Assembly (NCBI GenBank): GCA_002049455.2
Contig: KV918763.1
Span: 661,191 to 725,190, forward strand
DNA length: 64,000 bases
Direction of reading: 5' to 3'
Origin: Porphyra umbilicalis
Lineage: Eukaryota; Rhodophyta; Bangiophyceae; Bangiales; Bangiaceae
Shown here: in pieces, positions 35,021-63,700 of the stretch
Position numbering within the stretch: position 1 is the stretch's first letter
Layout: every line of letters begins with the position of its first letter
Program-made: the position numbers and the translations under genes
The notes under the pieces: generated by a model
Databases searched by the model: none
The model's input: the letters and a program-made list of their open reading frames with translations, nothing else
Told to the model about the DNA's origin: nothing

Positions 35021-37300
35021 TCAACTATGCACGGATGACAGAGGGTTGGCATACGCCGGCGCCACCCTGGAGACAGAGGAGGCGAGTAGGGCAGCGTCCA
35101 GGTCCGCCCGGTCCGTCGCGTGTGTCTTGGTGAGGGCTCCCACGGGGGACAGGCCGTACCGGCCGGACCGCAGCACCGCGCGCAGAGAGGAGGAGGAAGA
35201 CGGCTTAGTCAGGCAGTCAGCGAGTTGCCCGGCCGCAGGGAGCCAGGTCAGCGACGACATGGCGGCGGAGAAGTACATGTCCCGTAGCGCGGCGATGGCG
35301 GCGTTGATCTCCTTGGGTCGGCTCAAACCAGTGCCTGACATAGTGTTGAAGAGGCCGTGGCAGTCGATGAAGGCGTCGATGGGCATCAGCGACGCGTCCG
35401 TCCCTTCCGTCAGATGCGCCAGAACGCACGCCGTCTCGACGGCGGCTCGCATGCCGTCGAGCAGCGCGTACGTCTCTGCGGCAAACGAGCTGTGGGTCAC
35501 CCGCCGCTGCCGGTGGGAGCCCCACGCGAGCAGGGTCAGAGCCGTGTCAGGCTGCAGGGCGCCCCGCTTGTCGTCCGTGGCCAGGGACAGCAGGTACCCC
35601 GTCTGAGCCGTGGCCGACTGGAGGGTGATACTGGAAGCGTCCGTAAAGAGGACGAGGCGGTACGGCGCCCCGAAGCGTTGGTAGAGCAGGGGGAGGCCAC
35701 ACGCCGCCTTGGCGGCGCCGATGGAGCGGTTTACGTCCAGAAGGTCTTTGACGACAGCCTGGTGAAAGCGCCGGGCGAGGAGCGACGACGCGCACGCCAG
35801 GAACGGCTGCGTCTGGCCGGACGCCTACAGAAGAGCACCCACCGCCCGCCGGTACTGGGTCAGTTCCGCCGACGACACCGCCGCCGCGTTGGTGGAGGTC
35901 CGCGCCGCCGAGACGGAGACAGTGTCAATGGTTGCCAAGTAGTGGTCTTGGTTGACCGTGATGGACAGGGCGCCGGAAGACGTGTCGGCGTCCGTGACCA
36001 CGTGAAGGCCAGTGAAGGCCAATGTGCCGACAGTGACGGGCCCAACGTCGAAGGCCTGGCGCAGGGCGGTCTCAAACCGAGCCACCTCCTTGACCGTCCC
36101 GCCGTATAGGAAGTCGTCCACGTGGGTGGCGATGACGAACAACAAGCGGCCGCCGAGGTAAAAGAAGAAAAGGCCGTGGTCCACCTCGCAGCGGACGTAC
36201 CCCAGCGAGAGGAGAAGCGACAACACTGCCTCGTACAACCGGCGTGGCGCGTCCGTCAGCCCGTAGGCGCACTTGCGCAGCTCCCACAAAAGGCCGTCCG
36301 GCACGTGCGCCTGCGGCGGCGGGCGGACGTACACCGGCTTGAAACGATCGAGCGGCAGGCCCTGGAGAAAGGCCGTGCGCACTTCGACCGAGCGCGGGAC
36401 CCAGCCGTGCTCGGTCATTGACGCTATAACCACGCGGAGCGTGGCGCGCCCCACGGTCGGGGAGGTACTGACCACCGACGCCCTGTGGCGGTCCTCGCAG
36501 CCGCGGACAACCAGCCGGGCTTTGAGCTTGGCGGGGTCCTCCGGCAGCTCCGCGGGTTTCTCCGTGAGCACCCATCGCATCGAGATGGCGATTTGCCCCT
36601 CGTCGGGAACCTCGACGAACACACCTGGGTTGTGCCAAGCGTCCAGCTCCGACCGCATCGGGGCGTCAAAGCGCCGCCCCACGAGAGCGATGGGCACTTC
36701 TTGCCGCCGGCGGATCTCCGAGCGGGACATGTACACCTGCGAAACGGGCGCCGAGGGGTGCTCTCCGACGCGGAGGACGGAGGAGATGTCCTCCGCACCC
36801 GCGTGCGCCGTCAGCAGCAGCGAGGCGTGGAAGGTGGTCGGCGTCCGCGCCGTGGGCACACAGGCACGGGGCGGGGAGGGGGGGGGTGCCGGCACACGGT
36901 AACCCGCGACCACCCACGCGGCCGCCGTCTCATGCACCGCGGCCATGGTGCAGCCGACGGGAGGCACCGGCGGCGGATCCGGGGGCTTCGGAGGTGGCGC
37001 GGGGCGCCGGTGAACGCGCGCCACGGAGCCCGTCGCAGACGATGAGGCTAGAAGAGCGAGCCCCGCCGCCGGCGATGACGCTGCCGCGCCCGCCGGCGCC
37101 GGCCCCGTGCCGTCAGCAAAAAGGACCACCGGCGCGGCGGCACGAGTCGAGCGGCGCAGGGGAGCCTCCCCGTTCACTGGGGAGCCCCCGAGCGGCCCGG
37201 GCGGCGCTACCTCCCCCACCGCCGGGGGGTTTCCCACAGGGGAGGGGGGGCGCACCGGCGGCGGGCCGATGTCGGCCAGCGCCCCGGGCCACCTTGGCCC
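35021..37300 (-). pseudogene. copia pol: reverse transcriptase and RNase H
   Basis: RT begins around RFDAPMRSELDAWHNPGVF and includes RWVLTEKPAEL, KARLVVRGCEDRH, VEVRTAFLQGLPLDRFKPV, LRKCAYGLTDAPRRLYEAVL and the catalytic THVDDFLYGG. Motif A has Glu (VEVRTAF) where copia elements have the catalytic Asp (VDVKTAF). A TAG at 35825-35827 breaks the frame after RRAVGALL; the same frame continues as ASGQTQPFLACA, where the family has Trp or Tyr, so the stop looks like a TGG to TAG change. RNase H follows in the same frame with FTDASS, SSFAAETYALLDGMRAA, DCHGLF and LADCLTK. The upstream join to integrase is a frameshift in the G/C runs around 37225-37300. Confidence 0.9.
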
Positions 37301-39283
37301 ACATATCCATGGACGTGCGCTCCACCCCCGCATCTTCGTCGTCGGGAGGCTCGTCGACCGCTCCGCGGATGTCGTCCTCCGCACAGGCCTCCATCTGTGA
37401 CGGTGCCGGGTCCAGGGCGGCGGACGGCGCGGCCACCGCGGGTACCGAGACCGCGGCGGGGGTGACCGGGATGATGCACCCCGTGTCCCGGGTGACCCAC
37501 TTGCCCCCGTGCCGCAGCAGAACCTGTCGACCAACTTGGCCACCGACCCGCGCGGGGCCTCGGAAGCCACGCATTGCCGCCGACACACTGGCGTTCCAGT
37601 AGTAGACGGCGGTGTCGCGCGCCCAGTTGGTGACACCCGGGGACCGCGTCTTGCGCTGTAACGCGCGGCGGAGCGACTGGTCGGCCTCCGCGCGCATGAA
37701 GGCCACCCGGGACGCGCCAAGCAACCGCAACGTCTGCTGCAAGTTAGAGTCTTCCAGCTCCCGGACCTCCGAAAGGGCCGGTGGCGCGTCCGTCACGACC
37801 GAAGGGAGCCGCGGCTGGGACCCGCACATAAGCTGATGGGGGGTGGCGGCGCCATGCACTAAGAGGGAGTTCTTGGCGAGACACGTCATGTCCAACAGCA
37901 GCTGCGAGGGAGCCGTTGGCTCATCTGCCCGGAGCTTGTTGTAGGTATGCTTGATGACAGCGTTGTGGCGCTCACACAGGCCGTTGCTCCATGGCGCCTG
38001 CGCCGCCGTTTGGTCAAGGAAGATGCCGAACCGGTCCGCCACCAGCCGCGTCAGGTCCGAGTCGAACTCGCCGCCACCGTCGCTGAGGAGCCGCAGCGGC
38101 GCACCGAATGGCACGATCCAGGAGAGTAGCGCGTCACCGACCGCCACCGCCGTCTGATTGGGCAGTAGCGTGCACTTCGAGTAGCGCGAGTACATGTCAA
38201 TTACATGAAGTACCGGTCGCCCGGCCGACAGAAATAGAAGATCTGCCGCAAGGGCCTCGTTAAAGGCGGTGGCGGATGGAACCGTCACCACGGCATGTGT
38301 GGGCGCCGCCGCACGGTGCACGTGGCAGGTCGTGCAGGCCGCCTCCGCGTTCCGCACCGCCGCAAACACCTCGGCGTCGCACGTGCCGCCCCAACGCAGA
38401 AGACCCGAGATCTTAGCTGTCGACGCATGGCTGTACTGCACGTGCAGCTTACGGCCGACGCCCGCCAGATCGGGCGTGTCCTTGGTGAGGAGCGGGGGTG
38501 GTGGCATTTGGGCCGCGACCCCGCTCGTGTGGCGGCGGCCGCTCGCCGCCGCCACCGCCCCGTGCCCGACGATGGTTGGCGGGGCCTCATTCTCCGTGGA
38601 GTCGTCACCGGTCGGGTCCGGCCGGTGGGTGGCAGCTGCCGGGGCCGCAACGAGTGCCACCCCGCGGTTCGCGTGCGGAGTACCAAGGGCGTTGATGGTG
38701 TGGTGGCCGGCCGACGACAACTGCAGTTGGATCGGCGACCGGTGCCCGGGGATACTGATGGTGTGATGCTCATAATCGATGGAAGTCTTTAGGGAGGTCA
38801 AAGTTGGCCGGCTGATGAGCAGGGGCAGAATGCCAGGCAGAGTGTAGGCGCGCACCAGCTCCGTGCGGCAGCCCAGGCGAACCGGCAGGACGACTTGGCC
38901 GGTGGCGTCGACATGCGCCCCGTCGCCGAACTTGAGGGTGGCCGACACTGGTGTGCGCGTGACGCGGCACAGGTCCTCCATGGGCAGCTACAAGAGAAAG
39001 GCAGTTACCCAATCGTCTCCCACCACAGTGGCCGTAGCGCCCGAGTCCACGATGACCTCGCCGGCGGGCACCTCCCAGGAGGAGCCCGTTGTCCCCGTGA
39101 GCACCACCATGTGGATGACGGCAGCGGCAGGAGGGTCGTCATTGGAACCCCCTCCACCCGCGTCCTCGACGGTGATGCCACGCTCGCGGAGGTGCTTGAC
39201 CCGCATACGACAGTCGCGCTTGGTGTGGCCCGCCTTCTTGCAATACCAGCAGGCGCTCTCGGCCGCCGCCCCGCTGCCTGGAT
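37230..39283 (-). pseudogene. copia zinc knuckle, protease and integrase
   Basis: Downstream of a 12-C run (39284-39295), which shifts the frame from gag, the sequence encodes a CCHC knuckle (CWYCKKAGHTKRDC) and the aspartic protease site IVDSGATATVV. A TAG at 38988-38990 then interrupts (VTAFLL, stop, LPMEDLCRV) and the same frame continues through the rest of the protease. The integrase follows: HHCC zinc region (YSHAST to CTTCHVHR), core Asp in EALAADLLFLSAGRP, DMYSRYSKC, SDGGGEFDSDL and the last acidic residue in NGLCERHNAVIK. It ends in the Pro-rich linker before RT. Two disabling changes in an otherwise well conserved protein, together with young LTRs, suggest very recent decay or sequence error. 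Confidence 0.9.
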
Positions 39284-40611: not shown

Positions 40612-42064
40612 CACCGCTTGTCGCCGGAAGCGCCAGCGCCACCGCTGTTGCCACCGCGACGCGGCAGCGGCGGCCACGCAGCCCGCCACTGCCGCCGCCG
40701 CCGCCTCAGCTGGCAGCCCGTCACGGGCCGGCGGGCGGGCTTGCGGCGACACCCGCGGCGACCGCCAACGGCCGTGGTGGCGTCGCGAAGGCCGCCCGTC
40801 GGCGGGCGGTCGGGCCCGTCGCGGCAGCCATGGGGGGACCGCCGACGCAGGCCGCCCGCTGCCACGCCGGCCAACCGGCGTGGCGTCCGCTTACTCCGCC
40901 CCCCCCCCCTGCCCCCCCTTGCCACCTGCCGCGCGCTTCGAACCGCTCTCATAACCAGGCGGTTGGCCGCGTCCTCCGCCGTGCGGGTGCCCTCCGTTGT
41001 GTGCGCGTTGCGGTGGCGGCGCGCCTCTGCGCTCCTGAGACAGTTTGTCGCGCTTCCCGACTTTTTTAATTCTCTCCAGCTGAAACGTGGACTACCCCCA
41101 CTGGGGCGAGTGCGTCGCCGCCGCCCACAGTGCACTTCGCCGGCAGTGGTGGCAAGGGTGGAGGGCGGCTCTGGGGGACATACACGAGCGGGTCGGCACC
41201 TTGCTTCCTAGACGCCGCGCAGAAGCGATTGATCACATTGGCTAGTCCCTATAGCGTATGTTTCTACCATCAGCCAAACGACACTAAACGACATGAAAGG
41301 CGCTCGCACGGCACCTTCCTGGGTAGTCTCAAGTCTATCCCATTCTGTTAGACGGGGGCGGCCGATGCCCGCACGCACTGCACCCGAGCAGATCCAGGCA
41401 CAGGCATGCGTGCAACAGGGCAAGAGGGGGGTGCTCGTGTCGATGGGCCGGTCGACGGGATGGAGGCCACCCCCCCCCCCTCCCCCCGGCCGTCATGGTG
41501 CCAGGGGGGGTACCTGGGTCGGCACCAGCAAACAGGTATGAACCGGTCTGAGCGTCCGAACAGTCGGTGGGTGGCGTGGGAGAAGCGGAACTCGGACAGG
41601 CAGGTGTGGGAGGGCACACCGCATACGACACAAGACATACCGAGCACGCCGATCGCGGGCGAGTCCCTGGCCGCAGGCACAGCGATGCACGCCACGTGCA
41701 GGGACAAAATTCAAACCTCAGAAACCCCCCCCCGATCCAGCATTCAAACGAGGCCCGTGCCCCCCCCGGACGAAAACTCACCCCCCCTATTTCCTCCTTA
41801 GTAATTTTCTAGCCCCCCTCCACCTTCCTTACTTATATGTGGACCCTCTCTAATGAGATGTGGACCCTGGCATTTTCGACACTCGTGGACGGGGCGGCCT
41901 GCGGTGGGGGGTCGCACAACGGTGGCGCGCGAGGTCTTCCAAAAACATTGTGTCTCGACACAACGTTTATTGAAATATTTCTCCAACTCTGTTCTGCTGT
42001 CACCGGTCGCCTTGACAGTCGAGCACACACATTTAATCGCAAAATATATCATGACGATGACACT
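40612..42064. other. No confident gene; may include the severed upstream part of CAP-D2
   Basis: If the element and one GGTGC are removed, a minus-strand frame is open across the junction (SGDKRWH joined to RAAVERRVAAATM), so the insertion may be inside a transcribed or coding region. The sequence from 40612 to 41135 has no diagnostic motif. 41200-42064 is unremarkable. Confidence 0.35.
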
Positions 42065-42600
42065 GTCCAATCACATGGCTTAATTCAGAGCAAGTTCTCA
42101 TGTCACGAAAGCAGACCGAATCATGAGATCCATCTTGTGCGCACAACGACCAATGAAGCCACTTGTTCCTGTCCTACATTGCAAGGCTTTGTGCTTCCTC
42201 CTTGATAAATAACAAATCTAAGTGATCCCATTGGTTCTCATAGCGCTTGATCAATGATGTCCCACGGTTACGGGACGCTTGGATCTCACATATTCCCTTG
42301 CATAACGTAAAAAGCCAATCAGAACACTTGTATTGACAATATAATGCAACACTTTTTTCCGCGTCACTTGCGAGCAACATGTCTGACCATTCCATTGGTT
42401 GTCGTGGCGCTGTGTCAATGCCCGCAGTGGGCGATTGACGGATGGACACGCGCTTCCGAACTCATATTTATCAAGAACCAATCAGAACACATGCATCTAT
42501 CTTGGACTGCACACCTGTGTACCGCGTCTTTTGCGACTGGCTTTTCCGTGCACCCCATTGGCTGTCGTGACGCATTTGGGATGACTCGTCCGAGTGGATG
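42065..42600. repeat. ~163-bp tandem repeat with alternating CCAAT and ATTGG boxes
   Basis: CCATTGG occurs at 42228, 42391 and 42555, and CCAATCAGAACAC at 42315 and 42478, with degenerate forms at 42150 and 42069; the spacing is 163-164 bases. The monomers have diverged to perhaps 60% outside the boxes. The block is AT-richer than the surroundings. It could be an enhancer- or promoter-like array or an element end beyond the Fanzor 3' side. Confidence 0.6.
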
Positions 42601-42780
42601 GATGCCAGTGTGATCCTCGGCGGCGACCGCGGGACCTGACGGGAGGTGGACGGTGGCCGTTTGCCACCCGAAGATCGCACGGGGGTGAGGGCATGAACTG
42701 GGACGATCTGTGGTCAACGATCCCGCAAAGACTGGGGCGTCAGCGACCACGGGAGGCGGGTGGCGCGGATCTTGGATAAG

Positions 42781-42823
42781 CATTCTCTTCTCTGACAACC
42801 AGTAGTCACCTCTGGAAGAGGTG
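42781..42823. other. Shared end motif and hairpin just past the Fanzor frame
   Basis: CATTCTCTTCTCTGACAA (42781-42798) is found again, identical, at 58699-58716. Next to it CACCTC-TGGAA-GAGGTG (42807-42823) forms a 6-bp stem hairpin 18 bases from the last stop codon (42842). TnpB/Fanzor elements commonly have structured ends and guide RNAs at the 3' side of the gene; whether this is one is inference. Confidence 0.4.
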
Positions 42824-42841: not shown

Positions 42842-45800
42842 TCACACCCCACGAGATGAACCTGGTGAACAGTCTACGATTACCCGCTCGAGGCGGCTCG
42901 AAGACGAGTGGCTGTGCCCTACGGCTGGCGCGGGGCTGGCAGCAGCAATCTGGCCGACGTTACTCGGGGCCAGGTCACCGCTTGCCGACGCAGCAGCTGC
43001 GTCGTGCGCCCCGTCTGCCACCACACCCAGCGCCTCTACCCGCACCGTTGGCGCCGCCACTGGCACGGCCGTGGGGGCCGTCCCAGCCTCCGCGACCGGC
43101 GGGTCGGTGACGACAGGTCGGCGCCATCGCTCGCACGACGTGGGTGAACAGCGCGTCCACCCGTAGCCGGCCTCGTAGGTACCCACGTCGATCGCAGCCG
43201 CGTGCCGCACCGCCTGTACAGGGTCTTCCTGGGGTGGCGCGCGTGACACGGTGTACCCTCGGATGTGGGGGTAGATGCTGCGACCCTGCATGCTCTTGAT
43301 GGAAATCTTGGACATGTTGCGCGCCGCGTTGGTGTCTCGCCCGACGTACGAAGCCGGGCAGGCGACGTTGGTACACAGCTTGACCCCCCACAGCGCCAGC
43401 GGATCGGTCCCAAACGCCCACTTGCCGTGAGCCGCAATCGCCTGCAGCACCTTTGTCCGCACCGCCTCTGCGTGCTCCTTGGCGCGCTGAGCAGCCGCAC
43501 CGTCGCGTGGGCCCGACCGACTACCGGTCGTCACACCCCGTCGCGCGCGCCGGCCGCCGCGGTGGGGCGAGGCGCGCTTGGCCGCCGACACCGACGCGCG
43601 ATGCGCGTAGCTGCTTGCCGCCTTGAGGGGCGTCAGGTCGACCGGCAAGTCGGGCGACACGTACGTGTTGCACAAGCCGTGACCGCACTCTGCACACGTC
43701 TGGCTCGTATTGTGCTCGTCAACGTACACGAGGTGCACGTGTTTGGCCATGCGCCGCACGAGGTCGGCGCTGCCGGCGCGGGGCCTGCACCGGCCAATGG
43801 CCAACACCGCCTTGGTACCGTCCACCGTGCGCCGCAGCAAACCGCCCGTCAAGCGGTGGGCCAACTTTGCCGCGTACCGGTTGCGCTGGATGAGGACGTG
43901 CAGGCGCGCCTTTCACCGGCCCGACGTCGCGGCCGCCCCGTACGCAGACTGGTAGGCGTAGGTGTACGTGCGCGCAATGCGCGCAGTGGCCGCCACCACC
44001 CACGCGCCCCACGTCGTGACCTTGAGGGAGCCCCCCGCCGTCAGTGACTCGCGCGGCACGCCTGGGTGTGTCGCCGCCCACGCCGCCACCGCTGCCGCCT
44101 CGGCGCACCTCGTCATACCGGCGCCCGTCGCCTCGCGGTACGCGCCTTTGGAGACGACCAGCGTCGTACCAGTGGGCGGGACGCGCACGCGCCGGCGCCC
44201 CCCGGCGGCGGCCGCACGTTTGAGCGCGGCACACATCACGCGCAAGCGGTCGGCCGACGGCAGCGACGTGCCGGGCGCGCCGAGCTGCGGGGGCGCAGCG
44301 GGTGCAGCAGCGGCCGCCGCAGCCGCCACTCTCTCTGCCGTGCGCAATGCCGCCGCCGTCTGGCGCTTGTCCTGCGCCGCGCGCCGCACGATGCACGCGG
44401 CGTGTGCCCCACTGTCGACCGACACTGCACGCCTTGCCGCCTCTGCGTGCGCCGCCGCGTCTGTCTTGGCCTTGACAGCCGCCGTCGCGTGCGCCGCCTC
44501 CTGGAACAGGGCCGCCTCGCCCACGCACACACACACGTGGTTGAAGAAGTGCCACGGTTGGACGTTGCCGCCATTGATCGTGGCGTGCGCGGTGGCGCGC
44601 ATGCGCGTGAGGATGGCCCGGCGGCGGCCGGGGGCGCTCGTCCCCCGCTTGCGGGCCACCTCTTGCCGTTGAATCGGGGTCAGCCACTCGTCGCCAAAGG
44701 CCGGCTGCTTGTACCGCCGGCGCTTGGGGGGGGGGGGGTCGACCGCGTCTGTCGGCACCGTCGGTGCGTGCTCCAAAGGGGGCAAAGACGCTTGTGCCGC
44801 GGGCGTGGGCGCCGGAGGGCCCACCAGATCTGTACGAGTCCGCTTTGGGGGAGATCCCTCCGCCCCGTTCGACGCGCCGAGCGCGCCACGGCCGCGCTTT
44901 TTGGTCGTCTGGCTCACCGCGTCACCGCCGCCGACGGGAAGGCCCACCGCGGTGGCCTTGGCCGCGCGCGCAACCTCGGCCACCGCTGCACGCAGCGCGT
45001 CGACGGTCGGCAAAACCCGACCACCCCGCCGCACGAGGCACTCGGCGGCGGCGGTCGCGGCCATGGCCGCCCGCGCAAGCGCTTAGCCCGCAATTCGCTG
45101 CGCCCGGTACGCCCGATACGCGTGCAGGTGCGGCGCAGGTGACTGAACAAACGGCACCGCCCCGGGGCAGTAGGCAGCGACAATCGACGCGACGCCCGGG
45201 TCCCACCCAACAAACGTCAGCTCCTTGACAACGTCGGCCGAAAACGCCACGCGGTCCAGCTGCGTCCGCACGCTCGCCGTCTCGGTGGCCCCCCCCCCCC
45301 CACAACGACTGTCACTGGCAGCCTTACGACGCGCCCGCCGAGCGGCCGCCGTCGACGCGGCGGTGGCGGGGTGCCGTACCGTAAAGTGCACGCCGACACC
45401 GTCCGACACGATGGAGGGCCCGACCACCGTCTTGGCGCCGACAATGCGCGCGCGGCGGAGCAGCGTTTGGATGAACAGCCCGTCGGTTGTCGGCGCTGGC
45501 AGCGACACCCCGGCGGACGCCAGGCGCCGGCGGAGCAGCGCGCCGCCGACGCGCGCGTACGCGGTGCACGTGGCGGCTCGGCCGGGTGACGTGTCGGTCG
45601 CCTCGATGCCGGCACGGATGCACAACAGCTGGGCATAGTGAAGGAGCGGGTAGGTGTGCAGCGGCTGCTGTCGCAGGGCCGACGTGTCGAGCTGGAGGAG
45701 ACAGCGCCGCCGACCGTCACCACCGGCGTAGACTAGCACAGTGTCGTACGCCAGCGTGGCCCCGGCCGCCATGGCAGCCCCATCCGCCGCAGACACTTTG

Positions 45801-47770
45801 CCCGCCGGCCACTTGAACGACGGCGGGCGCGTGCCGTCGGCGGCTTGCAGGCCAGCAACGAGGGCCGCAATCAGTGCCGCGCGGCGCTGTCCGTTGAGAC
45901 CGCCGGGGGCCTGCGGGTAGACGTCGTGAACGATGCACTTGGCAATGGCCTTGACCGCCGACGTGACGTGCGTCACATAGTGGTTTTCAAAAGCCGTCGC
46001 CACGGTGGCCCAACCAGACGTGTCGCCCGGACTCGGCAGCAGCGTGCTGCACGGCAAATGGCTTGGCTCGGTCACCGCGTCTGCCACCGCCGCCGACGCC
46101 GCCACAAAGGCAGAGTAGTCGCCATCACCCTGGGCGGCGGCCTTGATGTCCCCGCGGGGCTTGACGCGTGCGCCTCTACCCGAGCAATCGACGCACGCCC
46201 GCCGGGAAGCACCGCCAAACGCACCGACGCCGCGACAAGAGACGGTCGAAGCGACCTGCTTCCAGGCCAGCCTGTGGTTGCTTGTCAGCGACGCCGGCAC
46301 GGCCGCGATAAACCCGTCGAGCGTGCGCCGGCGGTGGCTGCCGCCACCGCCGCCATCCCCACCACCGCCGCCGCCCCCGCCCGCACCCTGCCCGCCGCCA
46401 CCACCATCGACGCGCTCGAGCAGGTACCGCATCGTGCCGTCCATGACAATGGCCACGAGCCGCAGATGCTTTGTCTGTGCCTTGGCCAAATCGGTCAGCG
46501 CGGCCGCCCACGCGGCAGCGTTTGCGAGAGCGGCGGCGGTCCCCGGCGCCGTGCGACGGCTTGACGTCGTAGGCGGGCGCCCCGTCGGGGGCAAAGAATT
46601 TGCCGGCCGTCCTGGCGCCAGCCGTCGTCGGACACCAAAAAACCGGTCGACCGACACGGAAACGGTCGTCGTCACCTCCCCCGTCATGCGGTGCTGGTCG
46701 ACGCACCCCAAGTCGCGCCCGCTGTCCGCATTTTGGCCCGACCAGCCGTGAGCGACGGCTCGCAGCGGACACACAGCGCTGGCCCGGGTGTGGCCACGCG
46801 CGTGGCACGCACTGCACTTGTTGTTTTCGCTGCCGGCCTTGGCGCCCTTGGCCGCCCTGGCCGCCTCGCCACGCGCCGAGTGCGCCGCCTTGGTGGCAGC
46901 GTCAGCCGGACACGTTTTCACATTGTGCCCCGTCGCCCCGCAGCCGCCGCATCGACGCTGGTGGCCACGCGTGCCGCCGCCGCCGCGCGCCGTGGCGCCA
47001 GCGTCGCCACCATTGCCGTCGCCATCGTCGTCGCCCGCGCGGGCCCCCGCGTCAAGCAGCACCATGGGGATCAGGCCCTTGACCGCCGACAAGACGCTGC
47101 CCGCCGCGTGACGCGCTCGCGCGCAGAGGCGCCTGCACGCCACCCGGGCGGAGGCGTCCGCTCTTGTGTCGGCATCGACGGGGGGTGCCGCGGCGCCCTC
47201 GTCACCGTCGTCTGGTGCGGGTGGCCGGGGCGGCGGCACCGTCACCGCGGCGACGGCTTGCAGCACGGCAGTAGAGGCCGACGTGGCGTCGTCCATCGCC
47301 GCCAACGCGGGCGACCCAGTGCCCCGCGCGTGTACCGGCTTTGATGCGAGGAGCTTGGAAAGGACGGCACTCGCGGCACGCAAGCTCGCCACCGGCCCCG
47401 CATCACCGGCCGCCTCACAAGCGGCGACGGCGGCGGCAACCTCCACCGTCGCCGACCGCACGGCAGACGCCGCACTCTGCCGCGCGCTGTCGAGGTGGCC
47501 ACCCGCCCTGATTGCCGCGTCCTCGCCGGCCGTACCGAGGTGCGTGACCTCGTCGTCGTCGTTGAGGTCTGCGCCCACAGGCCCAGCCACACCCCGGACA
47601 TTGTCCCCATTGTCGTTGCCGCTCGCCGTCGCCTCGCGGGGCGGCGCTGTCGCCAAACTGGTGGTCGTTGTGGGGCGCCGCGTCGTGGGACAGTTGCCGC
47701 TGCCACGCGCTCGAAGCGCTGTCGACGTGCCGGGCGCCTCATCCTCGTTGGTCGACGACTGGTCGTCCAT
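42842..47770 (-). pseudogene. Giant Fanzor/TnpB-type RuvC nuclease frame with two in-frame stops
   Basis: One reading frame of 1643 codons, cut by TAA (45083-45085) and TGA (43913-43915) but never shifted. ATG at 47770 (MDDQSSTNEDE). Two CCHC knuckles lie near residues 270-340 (CGGCGATGHNVKTC and CSACHARGHTRASAVC). RuvC-I is LTFVGWDPGVASIVAAY (about residue 850, just before the TAA). After the TGA come the Fanzor-style alternative glutamate and zinc ribbon, YVDEHNTSQTCAECGHG, then about 100 extra residues, then CTNVACPASYVGRDTNAARN with the RuvC-III Asp and the typical NAAR motif. Family proteins are usually 400-1000 residues, so this one is very long, with Ala/Gly-rich inserts. Fanzors are eukaryotic RNA-guided nucleases carried by transposons. 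The two stops imply inactivation, unless introns or readthrough apply. Confidence 0.8.
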
Positions 47771-47925
47771 GGCGGGGCACGAGCGCACACGGGCGGGGGG
47801 GGGCTTGACGTCCTCAAGGCGGTGGCGCGCCCTTGCCGCCGCACCGCCACTGGGGGTGCGACACGCGGCGGCACGGCGGCCAGGACTGTAGGGCGCATGG
47901 TTGTGCACGGCGCCAGCACCCATCA

Positions 47926-47940
47926 CACCTTTTATAGGAA
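47926..47940 (-). promoter_or_regulatory. TATA box upstream of the Fanzor frame
   Basis: Reads TTCCTATAAAAGGTG on the minus strand, about 160 bases upstream of the ATG at 47770. One of the few clear TATA boxes in the window; it supports the chosen start over longer open frames upstream. Confidence 0.6.
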
Positions 47941-48748
47941 ACGGCACGGGTAGCGGTGGCTGGCTCGCCGCGGACCACCACACGACACGGGCGGGAACAG
48001 ACCACCCTGCGAGACGGTCTAGGAGCTGGTTGCGGGCCGGCCGAGCGCACGACACAAACACACCCTTGCGTGCAGGCACTCCCGCCGCGCTCTCCTCCTT
48101 CCTCGGCTCCACGCGCCACGCCGCCGCCGGCTCGTGCAGGTGGGTGTACCCACAGGCCGCCATGCGGGCACCGGCGGCCGCGGGAGAAGCTGGACGGTCG
48201 GTCGGCGGGTCGGCACCCGGTGGGTCGGCACCCGACGGTGGGAGAAGACAATGTACGGACGAACGGGCACTGCCAGTCTTCCCTCCCGCCCCCCCCCCCC
48301 CCCCTCCGCGAGGATGGGGTGTGGAAAATTTTGACGTCATACGCGCGGGCGTGTCACGGACAGAAGGGGTGTGGCGTGTTGAACGCCACCGTTGGCCATC
48401 ATGGGACGCCTGGACGACGTCGTGCCGACCGCTGCGGTGCGGCGGCGTCGCCGCATAGAGCACATGCGCGCCATACAGGTCCCACGGGTCCGACAGATGG
48501 GCCCAACCACAGCGCTGCGACGACATCGCGTCCATCCCGCCGGGGCGTGCGACCACCTGGCCGAAACACCCCCTCCTTCCTGGTGTTGAACGTGTCCACA
48601 TGGATGAAACCCGGCCGCACGAGTCGTCGTGGTGGCGGGGGTGGTCGGTCGTGTGGGGTGAGAATTTGGCCAACACGGCTGGTGTCGGTCGCCTGGCGGC
48701 GCCGCTGCACTAGAGACCCCCCACCATACCTGGTGAGGGGGGGGGGGG

Positions 48749-55000: not shown

Positions 55001-57007
55001 ATGGACGGTGCGATGGACGCTGCGGACCTACGCCGCTGGACCCCGTTCGACCTCGACGGCATGCCCCATCAGGAGCACAGTCGTGCAAAGGCGGAGGCAA
55101 ATGTGCGGGCAGTCGCCCACACCAACCGCGTGACTGCTATTGCGCGTATGCGCCTTCGGCGGTGGGGCACTCCGTGCGGGTTCGTGGACGTCTTTAAGAC
55201 GGGCAATCGCGCAGCTTCTGCGCGACCGCTGGGCGACTTTCATGGCGACCCGGTCACCGGTCCACGCGCCCATCATCGGACAACACTCGAGGTGCTCGTG
55301 TTTTGCAATGAGGTTCTCTGCCACCCGAAGAAAGAACACCTCCCCGACGTGTTTTTCCGCTTCGCCCGGTGGGGCTCGTTCAACACCCTGCGGTGCATGG
55401 ACTGCGACCGTGTCGACGTCCTCATGGCTGCGAAGGCGTTCGCCCGCTTGCAGCGGGCGTGGCCTACAGCCGTCTACGCGGACCGGGTGGCCGTCTTTGA
55501 GAGTGAGCTGTCTTGGCTACTCGCACCCGCGGACGAGTCCTACATCTTGTCGGCGCAGATGCTCCTGTCGCAGCACGCGGACGACCCGCAGACGGAGGAC
55601 GCAAAGGCGTGGTTCAATTGGGAGGAGTTTGTGTGTCAGGGTGAGGGTCACCTCGTCCCGTCAACCGCCCCCCCCGGGCGCGCCGTCCAGGAGGCGACGT
55701 GCCAGGTCGCCCGCCAGGGCTTCATTTGCCCCCCCTGGGCGAGCTCCTTCTTCAAAGACGCTTCGCCGGAAACGATGCGCCGCTGGCTGCCGGAGGTACC
55801 CGACATCTTTCGGAAACTGCCCTTCTCGTTGGCACCCACGTCGCCGCTGGTCGTCACATACTTTCGGGGCGCGCTTGTGGCACGCAAGTGCCCCTTACGG
55901 CACACACTGTTCGCTGAACTCGTGGCGAAGGTGGCCGCCACCTGGTTTGCAGCGTTACGTGTACGACAGCTCATGTACCGGCTGCCGGGTGAGTTGCCAC
56001 ACCTCATCACGCGCATCCCCTTGAACGTGCTCGGCACTGGGGTGGCCGAACCCTCGTGGCCCCTGTCTGTTGCAGCCGCGCGGCAGGGCCTACCCCTCGT
56101 CCCGTGGGAAGAGGTGCACCAGTCGGACGTTGCGAACCGGTTCGTGGACGGTTCGGTCGCAGCCATCCGTGTCGCCTACGCACCCGAGATGGTCTACGCG
56201 TTCGAGCTTCTCCACCCCGCCGGGGATTTTGCCGCGGTGTCGCGCCGTACGCCTGAGAGCCCACTCCGTGCACCACCGAGTCCGGGGGCATCCGGTGTGC
56301 CCCCGCGAGCGTGCTCGGCGTCGGCACCCGGGTCGCCGGCGGAGCGGACGTCCCCACCGCCAAGCCCCGAAGGCGGTTCCCCGGCAGCTAGGTCCCAGCG
56401 TAGCGCGGCCCAGTCGGCGTCCCACTGGGCACCCCCCACGACCCAGACTCCCTCCACCCCGGCACACCCGGGCGATTCAAGGGTGCCCGTGTCGCCTTCG
56501 GCGGACGCCCCGACGGCCGTCATACCATTGTCGGAGGATGAGGCGCTTTGGGGTGTCCTGGACGCCGCGCAAGAGCCCCCGCGGGTGCCCCTTGCGTCCA
56601 CCGCGCGCGTCGGCGCGGCGGTGCGCGCGATCCGCCGGCAGGAGTCTGCGGCATGGGCCGCGCGGACGGCGCCGCCCGAGACCCTGGCCCTGGCTTTGGC
56701 GCACATGCGCTGCCGCGACGCGACGGTCTTCTGTCGGGCACTGCGGGACATGCAGGGTGCCACCCTCCAGGTCGCGTACGAAACGCTCCTTGACGCAATT
56801 CGCACGACGTTCGGGCCGCAGGTAGGCCGCCAGGCCCTGGACGCCGAAGTCGAGCGCCTGTGCACCGGGCAGATGGGGACGCCTGGGGGGGGCACCAGCG
56901 GGCCCCGGATGTCGACCACAACGGAGCGGGGCCGAGCCCGCTCCTCGGGTGGTCGGGGAGCGTCCCGCGACGAAGAACGTCCGTCGCAGCGGCGCCGGCA
57001 GGAGTAG
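55001..57007 (+). CDS. Intact orphan gene between iteron blocks B and C
   Basis: 668 residues from the ATG at 55001 (MDGAMDAADLRRWTPFDLDG). The frame is open upstream but has no ATG there. The N-terminal ~400 residues are globular and Trp/Phe-rich (LEVLVFCNEVLCHPKKEHLP, FFRFARWGSFNTLRCMDCDR, FNWEEFVCQGEGHLVPS, RYLPEVPDIF-like RWLPEVPDIFRKLPFSLAP). A Ser/Pro-rich linker follows (about 425-530), then a helical C-terminal part (MRCRDATVFCRALRDMQGAT, then ATLQVAYETLLDAI) and a basic tail. No known motif is recognised. It is uninterrupted although almost every neighbour is broken. Its place between two direct copies of the iteron block suggests it belongs to that mobile element, perhaps as its DNA-binding or replication protein; this is inference. 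Confidence 0.7.
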   Translation: MDGAMDAADLRRWTPFDLDGMPHQEHSRAKAEANVRAVAHTNRVTAIARMRLRRWGTPCGFVDVFKTGNRAASARPLGDFHGDPVTGPRAHHRTTLEVLVFCNEVLCHPKKEHLPDVFFRFARWGSFNTLRCMDCDRVDVLMAAKAFARLQRAWPTAVYADRVAVFESELSWLLAPADESYILSAQMLLSQHADDPQTEDAKAWFNWEEFVCQGEGHLVPSTAPPGRAVQEATCQVARQGFICPPWASSFFKDASPETMRRWLPEVPDIFRKLPFSLAPTSPLVVTYFRGALVARKCPLRHTLFAELVAKVAATWFAALRVRQLMYRLPGELPHLITRIPLNVLGTGVAEPSWPLSVAAARQGLPLVPWEEVHQSDVANRFVDGSVAAIRVAYAPEMVYAFELLHPAGDFAAVSRRTPESPLRAPPSPGASGVPPRACSASAPGSPAERTSPPPSPEGGSPAARSQRSAAQSASHWAPPTTQTPSTPAHPGDSRVPVSPSADAPTAVIPLSEDEALWGVLDAAQEPPRVPLASTARVGAAVRAIRRQESAAWAARTAPPETLALALAHMRCRDATVFCRALRDMQGATLQVAYETLLDAIRTTFGPQVGRQALDAEVERLCTGQMGTPGGGTSGPRMSTTTERGRARSSGGRGASRDEERPSQRRRQE

Positions 57008-58619: not shown

Positions 58620-58720
58620 TCACCCCATCCTTCCCTCTCCCCCCCCCCCCCCCCCCCCCCCCCCTGCCCCAGCCCGCACCTGAGGGGGCGTCCAGCTCAT
58701 TCTCTTCTCTGACAATAACT
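58620..58720. other. Long C run and shared end motif
   Basis: A C run of about 24 (58639-58664) is followed by CATTCTCTTCTCTGACAA at 58699-58716, identical to 42781-42798 beside the Fanzor frame and in the same orientation. Confidence 0.6.
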
Positions 58721-58790
58721 TCCGCACTTTAATTGACTCTAACTCAAATGGATGGGGAGAAATAGACATTTCCACGCCTCAACGGAGTCA

Positions 58791-58830
58791 TACAGCCGTT
58801 CTCCCAAATTCCAGGCACGTGCGTGCAATA
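58791..58830. repeat. Solo end of the MITE family
   Basis: TACAGCCGTTCTCCCAAATT matches the terminal sequence of the two foldback elements; no partner arm was found nearby. Probably a truncated copy. Confidence 0.55.
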
Positions 58831-59514
58831 CCCTGGCCTTCAGGGCGGTGCCGCGCTCTGCGACGCATCGACACCGAGCACGCCGGCCGGCTTCATAGCC
58901 GCGAGCGCGCACGGGGGCACGTACAGCCATGCTGCCGTGGTGGGGAGAATTTGGGGCGGGGAAAGGGGTGCCGCCGCCGCCACCGCAGCGGCGGTGGCCC
59001 GCCGGCATTGCGCGAGGCCCACAGGAGGGGCCGTCACTCCGCCACGCAGCACACCTGCGCACGGCGGGCAGGGCGGCCGACACGGCGCACGAGTGGGCAG
59101 ATGGGACTGATCGCTGCGCGATGGGATGCCACCAACCGCGCCACTAGGTGGCGTCAGCAACCGCCGATGCGCCGCCGCAACAGAAGACGGCGCGCAGACA
59201 CGATCACCCGCGGGTCATCGTGGGCGCGTCGAACCCCGGAAGTCGCTGCGCGCGGTCGCCGCGCGCAACTCGGGGCGGTGGGGGGGGCAGAAGGGCAGAC
59301 GCCGTCCGGGCCCTGTGACCCTTGTGGCAGGAGAGTCCATCTCAGCCACGTAACTCTATTCACGTTTTAGCGTTATCGCGACCCTTTCATCGCTGACACG
59401 CCCTCAGATCCTGTGGACACGAATGCAGACTGCCACCTCTGAAACGGAGATCAAGTCCCGTTACCTAAGTATATGTGTGCATCACTACACTTTGAGAGCA
59501 CCCTGTTCTAAAGA

Positions 59515-59642
59515 CCAGGGAAGATTCCCGCACTCCAACAGTTGCAAAAGAGTGCCAAATCGGCTCTACGACCCTGCAGAGGCCGATTTAGAACTATTTC
59601 GCAACAGTTGGAGTGCGGAATTTTTGGGAGAACGGCTGTAGA
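59515..59642. mobile_element. Foldback MITE 2 (left tip damaged)
   Basis: The right arm ends TTTTTGGGAGAACGGCTGTA. The arms pair over GCACTCCAACAGTTGC / GCAACAGTTGGAGTGC and AAATCGGC / GCCGATTT around a ~20-base centre. The outer left arm has diverged before GATTCCCGCACTCC. Same family as 58371-58502; TA follows the right end. Confidence 0.75.
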
Positions 59643-59813
59643 GACGGCGGATTCGGATGACTCTGCGAGCCCAATATGTACAAAGGAGAAGGAATGTCCC
59701 CACAGATGCATCCACTCAGAGACTCAGAGGGTTTTCTAGTCCTGCCCAGATGGTCTCTGGCAGGCAGTGGCCGTGCATGCCCCCCAGGGTGCACAGTGCA
59801 CGCCGATTCTCAG

Positions 59814-59820
59814 TATAAAG
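59814..59820 (+). promoter_or_regulatory. TATA box of the histone H3 variant gene
   Basis: TATAAAG, 243 bases upstream of the ATG at 60057. No other plausible gene follows it, so it is assigned to the H3 gene. Confidence 0.6.
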
Positions 59821-60056
59821 AGGAGCCCATCCCAGCTGTCTCCTCTTGGCGACATATCGCAGTATCGCCTCTCGTGCCCGCCCCCCTCCCCACCCCCTGC
59901 CCCGCCAACCTCTAACGGCGGTGCGGCCTGTACCCGCCGCAACGACTGTGGTTTGGGGTTGACCTGCCCCCTCCGCGCACCCCGCCGCAACCCCCCCCCC
60001 TGGCGTTCCTCCCCTCAGCCACCTGTGGCGGATACTACACCTTCCCCCCGTCCGTC

Positions 60057-60470
60057 ATGGCCCGGACCAAGCAGACGGCGCGGCGGTCCACTCGCGGCAA
60101 GGCGCCGCGTTCTCTGGCGCTGGCTGCTGCCAGGCGGGCGACCAAGGCCAAGGCCGGTGGCAAGGCCGCTGTCAAGCGCCGCTACCGGCCTGGCACGGTC
60201 GCCCTGCGGGAAATCGGCAAGTTTCAGCGCTCTGGGGAGCTGCTCATCAGCAAGCTCCCCTTCCAGCGTCATGCGCGAGAAATCGCACAAGATTACACCA
60301 ACGTACAGCGCTTTCGCGCGTCGGCCGTTTCGGCCCTTCAGGAGGCGGCGGAGACCTACCTCGTCGGCCTCTTCCAAAATGCACAATTGTGTGCTATTCA
60401 CGGCAAGCGAGTCACAGTGATGTCCAAGGACATCCAACTTGCTCGCCGCATCCGCGGTGAGCTGGCGTAG
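60057..60470 (+). CDS. Divergent histone H3 variant with K9R and K27R
   Basis: 137 residues, intact and intronless. The histone fold is clearly H3: [59 protein letters not shown] and [14 protein letters not shown]. Loop 1 has normal H3 length, which argues against a centromeric CenH3. The tail starts [19 protein letters not shown]4 and K14 are kept, but K9 is Arg (ARRS instead of ARKS). K18 and K23 are lost, and the second ARKS (K27) is ARRA. Core changes include GKFQRSG for RRYQKST and DYTNVQRF for DFKTDLRF. Family knowledge: K9 and K27 methylation are the main silencing marks, so nucleosomes with this protein could not carry them. Its own TATA box and separate promoter suggest a replacement or stage-specific variant; whether it is expressed is unknown. 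Confidence 0.95.
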
Positions 60471-60629
60471 CTTTAGGGGATGTGCTTGCGAGGGATTTAT
60501 TACAATCAGTAACTTCTTTTGGAGACGTCGTGATAAAGTAGGATGGAGAAGAGGCAGGAGGTGGGTCATATCTCGTATTAATACACATGAAGAGACAGGT
60601 GGCCGGCACACGTACTCGAATTTAACGAT

Positions 60630-62987
60630 CTATACATACCGTACCCGAACCTGAAAACGATACTTATGACAGGGCCTGTTCTGCGTCGTGGTGGCGGCCG
60701 CCTCGAGCAGCCGGCGCCACAACGGCAGCGCGTGCGGCGCCCACGCAGGTTGGCCATCGGCCAGGTTGTCATGGGGGGCGCGGGAGGCGCAGGCGTCAGG
60801 GCGAGGGCGGGCGGCGGGGGCAAACGACGGGAGCCTGCGTGCTCGGTGGCGCGGCCGCCACACCGCCGCCGCAGAAGAAACGGCGTGGGCGGCCACCGCA
60901 TCCGCTAGGAACAGGAGGTCGACACGCCAGGCGGCGGCCGCCGGGGGCAGAGGGGGCGCGGGCGCGGCGCTCGGCGCCGCGGGCCCGGGCGCCGGTTCTT
61001 CGTCGGCCAGCAGCGGCGGGCACAACTCTGGGCCATCAGGGCCTTACCAAACGGTAGGTGCGGGCACGTTGGCCGGCGCGGCGGCGGCGCCGCGGGCGTC
61101 CAAGGCGGCGCGCGCGGCGGCCAGGGCGGCGGACGCCACGCGAGAGGACCGGCGAGGCGGCGTTGCGTGGGCCCCCCTGCGAGGCGTGGCCGCGAGAGGG
61201 GCCAAGCAGCCCGCAGGCCCGCGGGGGGACAGAGGAGGGGACAGAGGCATGGGGCGCGGGCCAGCCACGGGGGAAAAGGCGGCGAGGGAGGACGTCGTTT
61301 CCGCAAAAGGCGCCGGTGCCGGCAGCCGCCGGCACCCGGCGGCGGAGGGGGAGGAGCCTGTGTGCGTGGGGGGCGTCCGGGGAGAAGCCGGCGCAGCTGC
61401 CGGCGCGCCACAGACGACACGGGCGGCCGAAGAGGCGGCCGCAGAATCCGCGGCAACGTCGGCGGCTGGCAGTGCGGCACCAGTGGCGGCGCGCACAGGC
61501 CGGCGCGCGGACGCAGGAAAGCCGCACGGGACAGCGAAGCCGACAAAGAGAGGCACCGTGCGGCGACGCGAGCCGCCCACCGAGGGCACCAACAGAACGG
61601 GCGCAGCCAACCGGAGGGATGGCGGCGCGGAACGGGGCCGAGGCGCGCCGCTGCGGCACGAGGGGACATGCGGGAGCGGGAAGGCAGGACGACGAGGAGG
61701 CGATGGCAACAAGCGGGCGCCGCCAGGCACCAGAGAGCGCTGGTCTGCGCGGCGGGTGGGTAGGGCAACCCGGGGCCACGCAGCGGGGAAGGTCGGGGGC
61801 GCGCGCGCGGGCGAAGACGGCGCTCCCCAGTGGGGGCCCGGGACTCCCACACAGCCGGGCGGCGGCGCCGGCGCCGGAATGGCCCGCAGACGCGGCTGAA
61901 GGGGGGGTGGTGGGTGCCAGAGCTCGGAGGGAAGGCCCACAGGGGTGGAGGGCGCGCACGGGCGGCCCGGACCTGGCGCGCCCCGCAGGGCCCGAACGAC
62001 CACCGGCGGATCGGCCGCGAAGTCGGCCGCAGGCGAAACCCGCGCACGCGCCGCGAGCGGGTGCACGGCGGGGCGTGGTCGGGCCGCGACAGCGGGCGCG
62101 CCAGCGATCGGCGAGGGCGCGAGGGAGGAAAAAAGCTCGGCACAGGCCGCAGCCAAGGCGGGTGGCGCCCCGGCGGCGGCGGGCCCCGGTCCGGAGGCCG
62201 CGCCCGCATCCAATGTGTGCCGGCACTGTGGCTCAGCGCCGCCGGTCGCGACGGCGGGGAGTGCGGGCGGCGAAGAAGTGGAGGGCGGCGACCACCGTTG
62301 CGCTCAGGGAAAACGGTGTGATGGCGGCGCAGAACGTGGCCGCGGCGCGCCGCCGCGGCACGAGGGAACAGGCGGGACCGAGAAGGCACGGCAACGAGGA
62401 CGCGAGGGAAACGGACGGGCGCCGCCAGGCACCAGAGCGTACGGGTCTGCGCTGCGGGCGAGTGGGGAGATCCGGGGCGGCGCAGCGGGGAAGGTCGGGG
62501 GCGAGCGCGCGAGCGAGGACGGCGCTTCCCCGTGGGGGTCCGGCACCTTCCCTCCGCCGGGTGGCGGCGCCGGTGGCGTTGTGGCCCGCACGTGCGATGG
62601 GTGGGAGCGTGGCGGGGGCAAAACCCGAAAGGGAAGGCCCGCCGGGGTGGACGGCGCGCGCGGGCGGCCAAAGACTGCCGCGCATCGCAGGGCCCGAACG
62701 CCCAGCGGTGGACCGGTCGCACAGGCGGCCGCAAGCTGCAACCGCGCACGTGCCGCGAGGGGGTGCACGGCGGCGCGTGGTTGGGCCGCGCTAGCCGGCG
62801 CGCCGGCGAGCGGCGAGGGCGCGAGGGACGCCAAGTGCGCGGCAGAAGTTGCCGCCGAGGTGGGGCGCGCACCCGCGGCGGCGGGCCCCGGCCAAGTAGC
62901 CGCGCCCGCGGCGGCAGTGTGCCGCCGCGGTTGTGGTATTAATAACGTTAGTTCAATTACCAGTGTACTGAGACCGACCGTAGCCAA
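60630..62987 (-). repeat. Ala/Pro-rich region built of two ~700-bp tandem units; possible minus-strand gene
   Basis: GGGCGCCGCCAGGCACCAGA at about 61718 and 62417 starts homologous stretches of about 650 bases (about 75-80% alike by eye). One minus-strand frame is open over the whole region apart from a TGA at 62304 and a TAA at 61044, and both units are read in it in phase (AGAPASAAQPRAAVHPLAAR against AGAPAVAARPRPAVHPLAAR). The end near 60630 is less repetitive (LWRRLLEAAATTTQNRPCHK). No ATG is found at the upstream end. Long open frames on the other strand reflect composition. A real gene is possible but not shown. Confidence 0.4.
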
Positions 62988-63700
62988 GCAATAAAGCGAG
63001 TTCTATCGCCGTCGCGGCGAGGAAGAAGACCTTTTGTTGGAGGGCATCCGATGGGGAGCCGGGTGGTGCCCACGACGGCGACCCCGGACCCACGGTGGTT
63101 TAATACAAACAACGGCACTGGTCGATCGACCATCCGATCAAGCGATCGTAATGAGTGCCGGCAGACAGATAAGACAGGCAAGCGAACAAGCAATAAAAAA
63201 ATAAACAATGCGGAAGTAACCCCCCAAAGGGCGTGCCGCAAGCCGAGTCACACACATCCGTGGATTCGGCCAGTCAAGGGGGCTACCCGTGGCTAATTGC
63301 CAATTGGTAGCAGAGATATGCTACATACCTCCAACGCGAGATTCGAACCGTCCCGGTGAGATCCGAGGATTGTGAAACCCGGTTGGGCGATCGCGGCCCC
63401 TTACGGGCCCGCGCGGGCGCAACCGCCCAGGCGGTGGGAGCCGTGGGGGGCGCGCCGCCCAGTCCCGATTGGGGGGAGGTGGCGGTTCGCCGTCATCGGT
63501 CGCGACCGTCCCGCCACACACGCGTGGGCGTGGGTGGCGGGCAGCTGACGCTGCGGATCCGACCGGCGCTTGCGCGTACACGCGCCCTCGCAGGGGAGTC
63601 GGCGTCGGCGTCGGCGTGGTGGCCAGACGGCCGGTTGACAGGCGACCAGCTTCGGGGTTAAGACCCGTTGGTGCGCGGGTGCGTCGTGCAACACGCGTTG
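62988..63700. other. No gene recognised
   Basis: AT-richer around 62940-63200; short frames only. Confidence 0.5.

Follow-up and report, generated by a model that had tools for sequence, protein, structure and literature searches.

The window, a 64,000-nucleotide stretch of Porphyra umbilicalis DNA at the end of our contig C3, contains an open reading frame for a histone H3 that lacks both silencing lysines, K9 and K27. Such a gene raises the question of whether it is a histone variant of the alga or belongs to something else, and what its loss of lysines would serve.

60057–60470, forward strand: H3 variant ORF, 137 amino acids, without internal stop.

The H3 variant and its family in the genome

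Translation and alignment of this ORF confirmed what the initial annotation had claimed for its tail. K9R and K27R are accompanied by a retained K4, both ARKS motifs read ARRS/ARRA with the neighbours of positions 9 and 27 kept, and K18 and K23 are lost, position 18 being a gap and position 23 an alanine relative to canonical H3. K14 is retained, and K56R and K79T are further changes; the alignment near K36/K37 is ambiguous and we make no statement on those positions. The core, which had been described as a good H3, proved to be one: the protein matched PF00125 at 2e-35 (Pfam), and the best 60 of its 182 distinct sequence matches in the PDB were all labelled H3 (best E 2e-50), with H3 chains matching across residues 1–136. 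We checked 16 DNA-contact and 12 H3–H3 positions, which we take to represent these interfaces. The window copy is canonical at 15 of the former, R63S being the exception, and at 10 of the latter, positions 107 and 114 being different. At three core positions that relatives conserve, it carries R52G, L70H and V71A. The AlphaFold model of the protein, based on an eight-row alignment, was poor (mean pLDDT 52.8).

CenH3 proteins are marked by a longer loop 1 and a divergent tail. CenH3 identity was rejected for the window copy, which has no insertion in loop 1 and a tail reading ARTKQTAR. No viral relatives were found in a phage collection or in IMG/VR, both of which are poor for algal sequence. 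A search for the histone 3′ stem-loop or another RNA element gave nothing at E values up to 1 in five loci; it is uninformative because the canonical H3 loci among them also gave nothing.

In the assembly (83.8 Mb, 665 contigs), we identified 77 H3-like matches, which we counted as 73 places: 51 of the K9R/K27R type (hereafter R-type), four canonical and 18 other, more divergent ones (places and contigs carry our own L and C numbers). With 51 of 73 places sharing it, the altered tail is not a chance occurrence. The initial annotation had asked whether canonical H3 of the same lineage shares the substitutions. This was rejected by comparison with the H3 genes of the same genome: canonical L049, L050 and L052 retain all the lysines altered in the variant. 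L054, the remaining canonical place, shares their tail, and its frame breaks after approximately residue 45.

Forty-three of the 51 R-type places could be aligned; L063, L067, L072, L073, L074, L076, L078 and L079 were left out as broken or partial. Position 9 is arginine in all 43 aligned copies and position 27 in 42, with one tryptophan. Position 18 is a gap throughout, position 23 is alanine in 42 copies and valine in one, and R56, T79, K4 and K14 are each present in 42. Among the six left-out copies with a visible tail, position 9 is arginine in four and proline in two, and none has lysine at 9 or 27. Most aligned copies have an intact ORF; four (L019, L025, L051 and L053) contain internal stops, and L041 extends past its stop. 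One protein sequence is shared by five copies and a second one by three. In a protein tree of 23 rows, the 11 R-type rows, including the window copy, clustered at 100/100; the tree supports no particular placement of this cluster among the other H3 families.

The genome also contains other non-canonical H3-like families, which are often multi-copy (L056–L066, L068, L069–L071 and L075). Fifteen of the 18 other places have a readable start and three do not; read by eye, K4 is present in 14 of the 15, R9 in 12 and K9 in none. Several of these places have up to 2.9 kb of flank in common, and the 5 kb beside L056 contains, by eye, a copia-like pol frame on the opposite strand. One further H3-like sequence, L060:1261–1680, has a longer loop 1 and a divergent tail and is a CenH3 candidate.

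The carrier of the H3 variant

The flanking DNA of the best-preserved R-type copies is 97–98% identical over approximately 2.9 kb (L009 compared with L014, L015, L017 and L022, on different contigs). The DNA shared by the four canonical H3 genes reaches at most approximately 630 bp around the coding region, with an additional upstream stretch of approximately 500 bp common to L049 and L050. Two R-type copies, on C139 and C148, were read for approximately 10 kb on each side of H3. The two elements align over approximately 14 kb and both end in 20-bp inverted terminal repeats, GAGCAAACCCTGCAACGTCG; they are bounded by target duplications (TAA at C139, TCA at C148) and lie in unlike host flanks. 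The gene order is the same in both: transposase (forward strand), H3 variant (forward) and a putative Myb-like gene (reverse). On the left side of C139, a 704-residue frame matches PF04827 (2.8e-60) and PF13359 (1.3e-15), which identifies a PIF/Harbinger transposase, and the C148 element also has this transposase, at 99%. A Myb/SANT-like second ORF is expected in the PIF/Harbinger superfamily. The protein encoded on the opposite strand of the right part of C139 is a candidate for this partner, a weak call that draws on matches to PF14303 (4.6e-6, just above the cut-off) and PF13837 (0.0092, below it).

The exact terminal repeat occurs 81 times in the genome (43 forward, 38 reverse) and its reversed-letter control not once. 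Seventeen of the 51 R-type places lie inside a facing pair of repeats spanning 11,480–14,579 bp, a further 14 have one repeat in reach at similar spacing, and the remaining 20, including the window copy, have no exact repeat in reach; nor does any of the 22 other H3 places. Conversely, 17 of the 19 close facing pairs enclose an H3 and 13 a scored PF04827 match; the two pairs without an H3 match are on C76 and C173. Harbinger elements are common in this genome (624 first-look PF04827 candidates, of which 150 were scored), so that mere proximity to a transposase is weak proof, and it is the shared ends, spacing and orientation that count. We read the ends of 12 elements, and each has matching 3-bp target duplications (TGA in seven, TCA in three, TTA and TAA in one each); those of PIF/Harbinger elements are 3 bp long and usually TWA. 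Apart from C139, they are distributed as follows:

TTA: C8
TGA: C9, C10, C11, C28, C79, C82 and C98
TCA: C48 and C94, besides C148

A simple 30-base comparison detected no flank similarity between the ten elements other than C139 and C148. Because facing terminal repeats, target duplications and a transposase surround the H3, we conclude that a PIF/Harbinger DNA transposon carries the K9R/K27R variant as cargo, with a probability of approximately 95%. The window H3 is a member of this 51-place, transposon-carried family rather than a single host variant.

Searches of a library of open-access literature brought up no intact transposon-encoded core histone, and an earlier description, for example in a repeat database, is possible. 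Bracovirus histone H4 and the giant-virus histones are likewise parasite-encoded core histones, but viral ones. The word histone does not occur in a 2026 review on plant gene capture (PMC13317346). The nearest case in that literature is a Helentron of Culex, whose H4 and H15 fragments contain a premature stop, a frameshift and indels; the same paper describes a SET domain in a Phytophthora proto-Helentron (PMC4067079). Helentrons and the algal element thus both carry histone-derived sequence, the Helentron fragments being broken, whereas the algal ORF is mostly intact and selected.

The window copy and selection on the family

The structure of the window copy differs from that of the complete elements:

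59641–60570, forward strand: H3 module, comprising the promoter region, the ORF and a 3′ part, with approximately 79–84% DNA identity to the best-preserved transposon copies.
59814–59819, forward strand: TATAAA box; the equivalent site is at −345 in the transposon copies (−344 in L015).
58698–58790, forward strand: outer upstream end of the H3 module, 80% identical to positions −609 to −516 in the transposon copies and separated from the rest by an insertion.
58791–59640, no strand assigned: nested insertion, approximately 850 bp long, which has TA at its start and end and whose 18-nt inverted ends match perfectly (58791–58808 and 59623–59640).

Similarity to the transposon copies of subfamily 1 extends from −609 to approximately +520 of H3 (79–84%), roughly 1.1 kb, with none beyond. 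No Harbinger terminal repeat was detected in the window at up to three mismatches, a shorter pattern occurring only at chance level, and the window contains no transposase or Myb matches; the contig ends 3.5 kb downstream of the gene. Part of the nested insertion (58807–59522) is 87% identical to a stretch adjoining the H3-like place L055. We infer that the window gene is an old relative of the transposon H3s whose transposase was lost or absent from the start. Because it has neither transposase nor terminal repeat, and because of the core changes R52G, L70H and V71A, it may be a relic.

We estimated dN/dS by the Nei–Gojobori method with our own script. Between the two transposon subfamilies, dN/dS was 0.090 (L010–L035) and 0.079 (L009–L035) at dS of approximately 0.55–0.67; the window copy gave 0.135 against L010, 0.128 against L009 and 0.195 against L035, and dS across all these comparisons was 0.49–0.67. 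Within L010–L035, the core (0.065) is more constrained than the tail (0.181). Copies that look decayed gave higher values (L041 0.97, L044 0.43, L037 0.48, L045 0.83, L053 0.82 and L051 1.74). The window's own branch carries 15 non-synonymous and 18 synonymous changes, compared with the 2.68:1 expected under uniform mutation, and this excess of synonymous changes has a one-sided binomial probability of 0.0008, which ignores mutation bias. Because dN/dS between lineages is low (0.08–0.20) and the share of non-synonymous changes on the window branch falls below the expectation for uniform mutation, we conclude that the R-type family is selected at the protein level, with purifying selection between lineages. 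The window lineage has been selected during at least some of its history and may have decayed recently. The dN/dS comparison that the initial annotation had proposed separates constrained lineages from visibly decaying copies (0.43–1.74), and the annotation's view of selection rather than decay is supported in that the coding sequence evolved under constraint.

The window gene could instead be a host H3 variant, either the gene that the transposon captured or one domesticated from it, and act in, for example, phase- or spore-specific reprogramming. This would suit its intact ORF and TATA box and the confinement of transposon homology to the 1.1-kb H3 module, with neither terminal repeat nor transposase in the window. 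Against it stand the changes at core positions that its relatives conserve and a transposon-like insertion upstream of its TATA box. Moreover, dS is alike (0.49–0.57) for window–L010, window–L035 and L010–L035; the window copy and the two subfamilies are therefore near-equally diverged, and the window copy is not marked as the source. We consider this origin of the window gene rather unlikely and retain its reading as a relative of the transposon-borne H3s.

Several other features of the window were recorded. Positions 41992–42793 are 69% similar to the sequence that directly precedes the H3 module on the C139 transposon, and therefore this neighbouring module of the transposon exists elsewhere too. 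Positions 62932–63584 are a dispersed repeat with 94–98% identity to stretches beside the H3 places L034 and L021. A short match to a Cas12f1-like TNB domain (42842–43750, reverse strand, 1.4e-6) possibly represents a degraded Fanzor/TnpB-like gene, and weak integrase-core and zinc-knuckle matches at 37113–38981 and 45083–48601 (both reverse) are probably retroelement remains. A 668-residue ORF at 55001–57007 (forward) has no Pfam match at E values up to 0.01. An ordinary host gene, a Pescadillo homologue (PF06732, 3.7e-99), lies at 7987–10068 on the reverse strand.

Possible roles of a transposon-encoded H3

We give slightly better than even odds to the proposal that the transposon-encoded H3 counters silencing by the host. 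The element, which has a TATA box, would express the variant, and the protein, canonical at 15 of the 16 DNA-contact positions, would enter nucleosomes. PRC2 would find no K27 on it, which follows from the sequence, so that new nucleosomes, chiefly on the transposon's own DNA, would be refractory to H3K27 (or K9) methylation and still able to bear active K4 methylation. Arginine would be expected to evade PRC2 passively and not to poison it. By analogy with Arabidopsis H3.15, host PRC2-type silencing would be diluted and the transposase would stay expressed. Because a histone diffuses, protection of the transposon alone would need a targeting step; confinement through the Myb-like protein or through deposition during transposition would be guesses.

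Arabidopsis H3.15 and H3.10 retain K9, and VANDAL transposons are Mutator-like elements. H3.15 carries K27H, cannot be marked by PRC2 at that position and removes H3K27me3 from chromatin; like the algal variant, H3.15 and H3.10 are H3 variants tied to escape from H3K27me3 or its resetting (PMC10426802). They differ from it in being host genes, each of one tissue, whereas the algal variant is a transposon gene without K9 and K27, present in dozens of copies. The VANC proteins of VANDAL transposons in Arabidopsis counter epigenetic silencing (PMC10398659, PMC5735166). VANC and the algal H3 are both transposon-encoded products, the effect of the latter being a proposal, but VANC proteins bind DNA sequence-specifically, whereas the algal H3 is a core histone encoded by a Harbinger element. 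ALP1, a Harbinger-derived protein, antagonises Polycomb, and ALP1 and ALP2 likewise involve a Harbinger protein opposing Polycomb silencing (PMC4671723); they are domesticated host genes that bind PRC2, whereas the algal transposon would carry a PRC2-refractory substrate. In C. merolae, the relevant passage reports transposable elements marked by H3K27me3 and expressed upon loss of E(z) (PMC13353863, citing Hisanaga 2023). Given such PRC2-type silencing in C. merolae, an H3 closed to K27 methylation is a plausible weapon for a transposon.

The H3 could alternatively serve transposition itself, for example by forming open or unstable nucleosomes at ends or targets or by quick assembly of excised DNA, with K9 and K27 lost through disuse. 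Changes beyond the silencing lysines, namely the loss of K56 and K79 and the replacement of R63 by serine, are compatible with this, as is the strong selection on the core relative to the tail. Lysine-to-arginine replacement at exactly positions 9 and 27, with the ARRS/ARRA neighbours and K4 and K14 kept, is nevertheless more specific than tail decay, and R9 with K4 recurs in the other non-canonical H3 families in the proportions given above. We regard a role in transposition as unlikely. Still less probable is a passenger, a host variant captured by chance and of no use to the transposon. Decay is frequent among the copies, with four of the 43 aligned interrupted by stops and eight of the 51 broken or partial. 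The dN/dS of 0.08–0.09 between the two subfamilies and the eight copies that encode just two proteins strain this reading, because useless cargo would not preserve its frame across so many synonymous changes. An artefact, in which the count is inflated by repeats or by a single locus present as uncollapsed haplotypes, might be suspected in a 665-contig assembly where L057/L058 and L071/L075 share 2.9 kb and could be haplotypes, but it was rejected for 12 elements by target duplications and flanks, ten having unlike host flanks and their own duplications and C139 and C148 differing in both, and we consider it extremely improbable.

If the anti-silencing role is correct, a nucleosome supplied by the transposon that cannot be marked would be a route different from that of the known DNA-binding anti-silencing proteins, and the family would amount to a K9R/K27R experiment run by nature and kept up by selection. 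Whether PRC2 originated as a silencer of transposons could then be tested directly in red algae, PRC2 being reported to silence transposable elements in C. merolae and a six-frame search of the present genome having found no C5 DNA methylase. More tentatively, and as a possibility rather than an expectation, selfish histones may exist as a class: DNA transposons would encode their own H3 without the silencing lysines but with K4, assemble their own DNA or the entire genome into chromatin that Polycomb is unable to lock, and, in this alga, engage in an arms race with E(z)-type enzymes that have reached dozens of copies.

The silencing enzymes of the alga were surveyed by six-frame family searches, which miss intron-split genes. 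No C5 DNA methylase (PF00145) was found in the genome by this method, its control being positive in 10 of 14 genomes, all prokaryotes, and no Pre-SET domain, for which the control was silent too. Matches to phycobilisome linker genes lay on the organelle-like contig C665 in four of 12 cases and on nuclear contigs in eight, which points to a red alga or a close ally as host. SET domains were found at 85 places and CXC domains of the E(z) type at 76 by the family searches. L093, a SET domain from the multiplied set, has EZH2 as its best match (9.8e-28), and its matches at ranks 1–19 are EZH2/EZH1 proteins or chimeras, one of which bears no label beyond putative protein and H3 peptide; by eye, the SET domain of L089 resembles that of SET1, a K4 enzyme. 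The E(z)-type SET/CXC genes are multiplied (for example on C71, C261, C21, C50 and C192; L090–L096), often with frames of approximately 1000–1290 residues. They could be mobile or partly haplotypes; the C71 and C261 copies are 99.6% identical across 1.2 kb of 3′ flank. In several E(z)-type copies, the NHS motif, read by eye, is NHR or otherwise changed.
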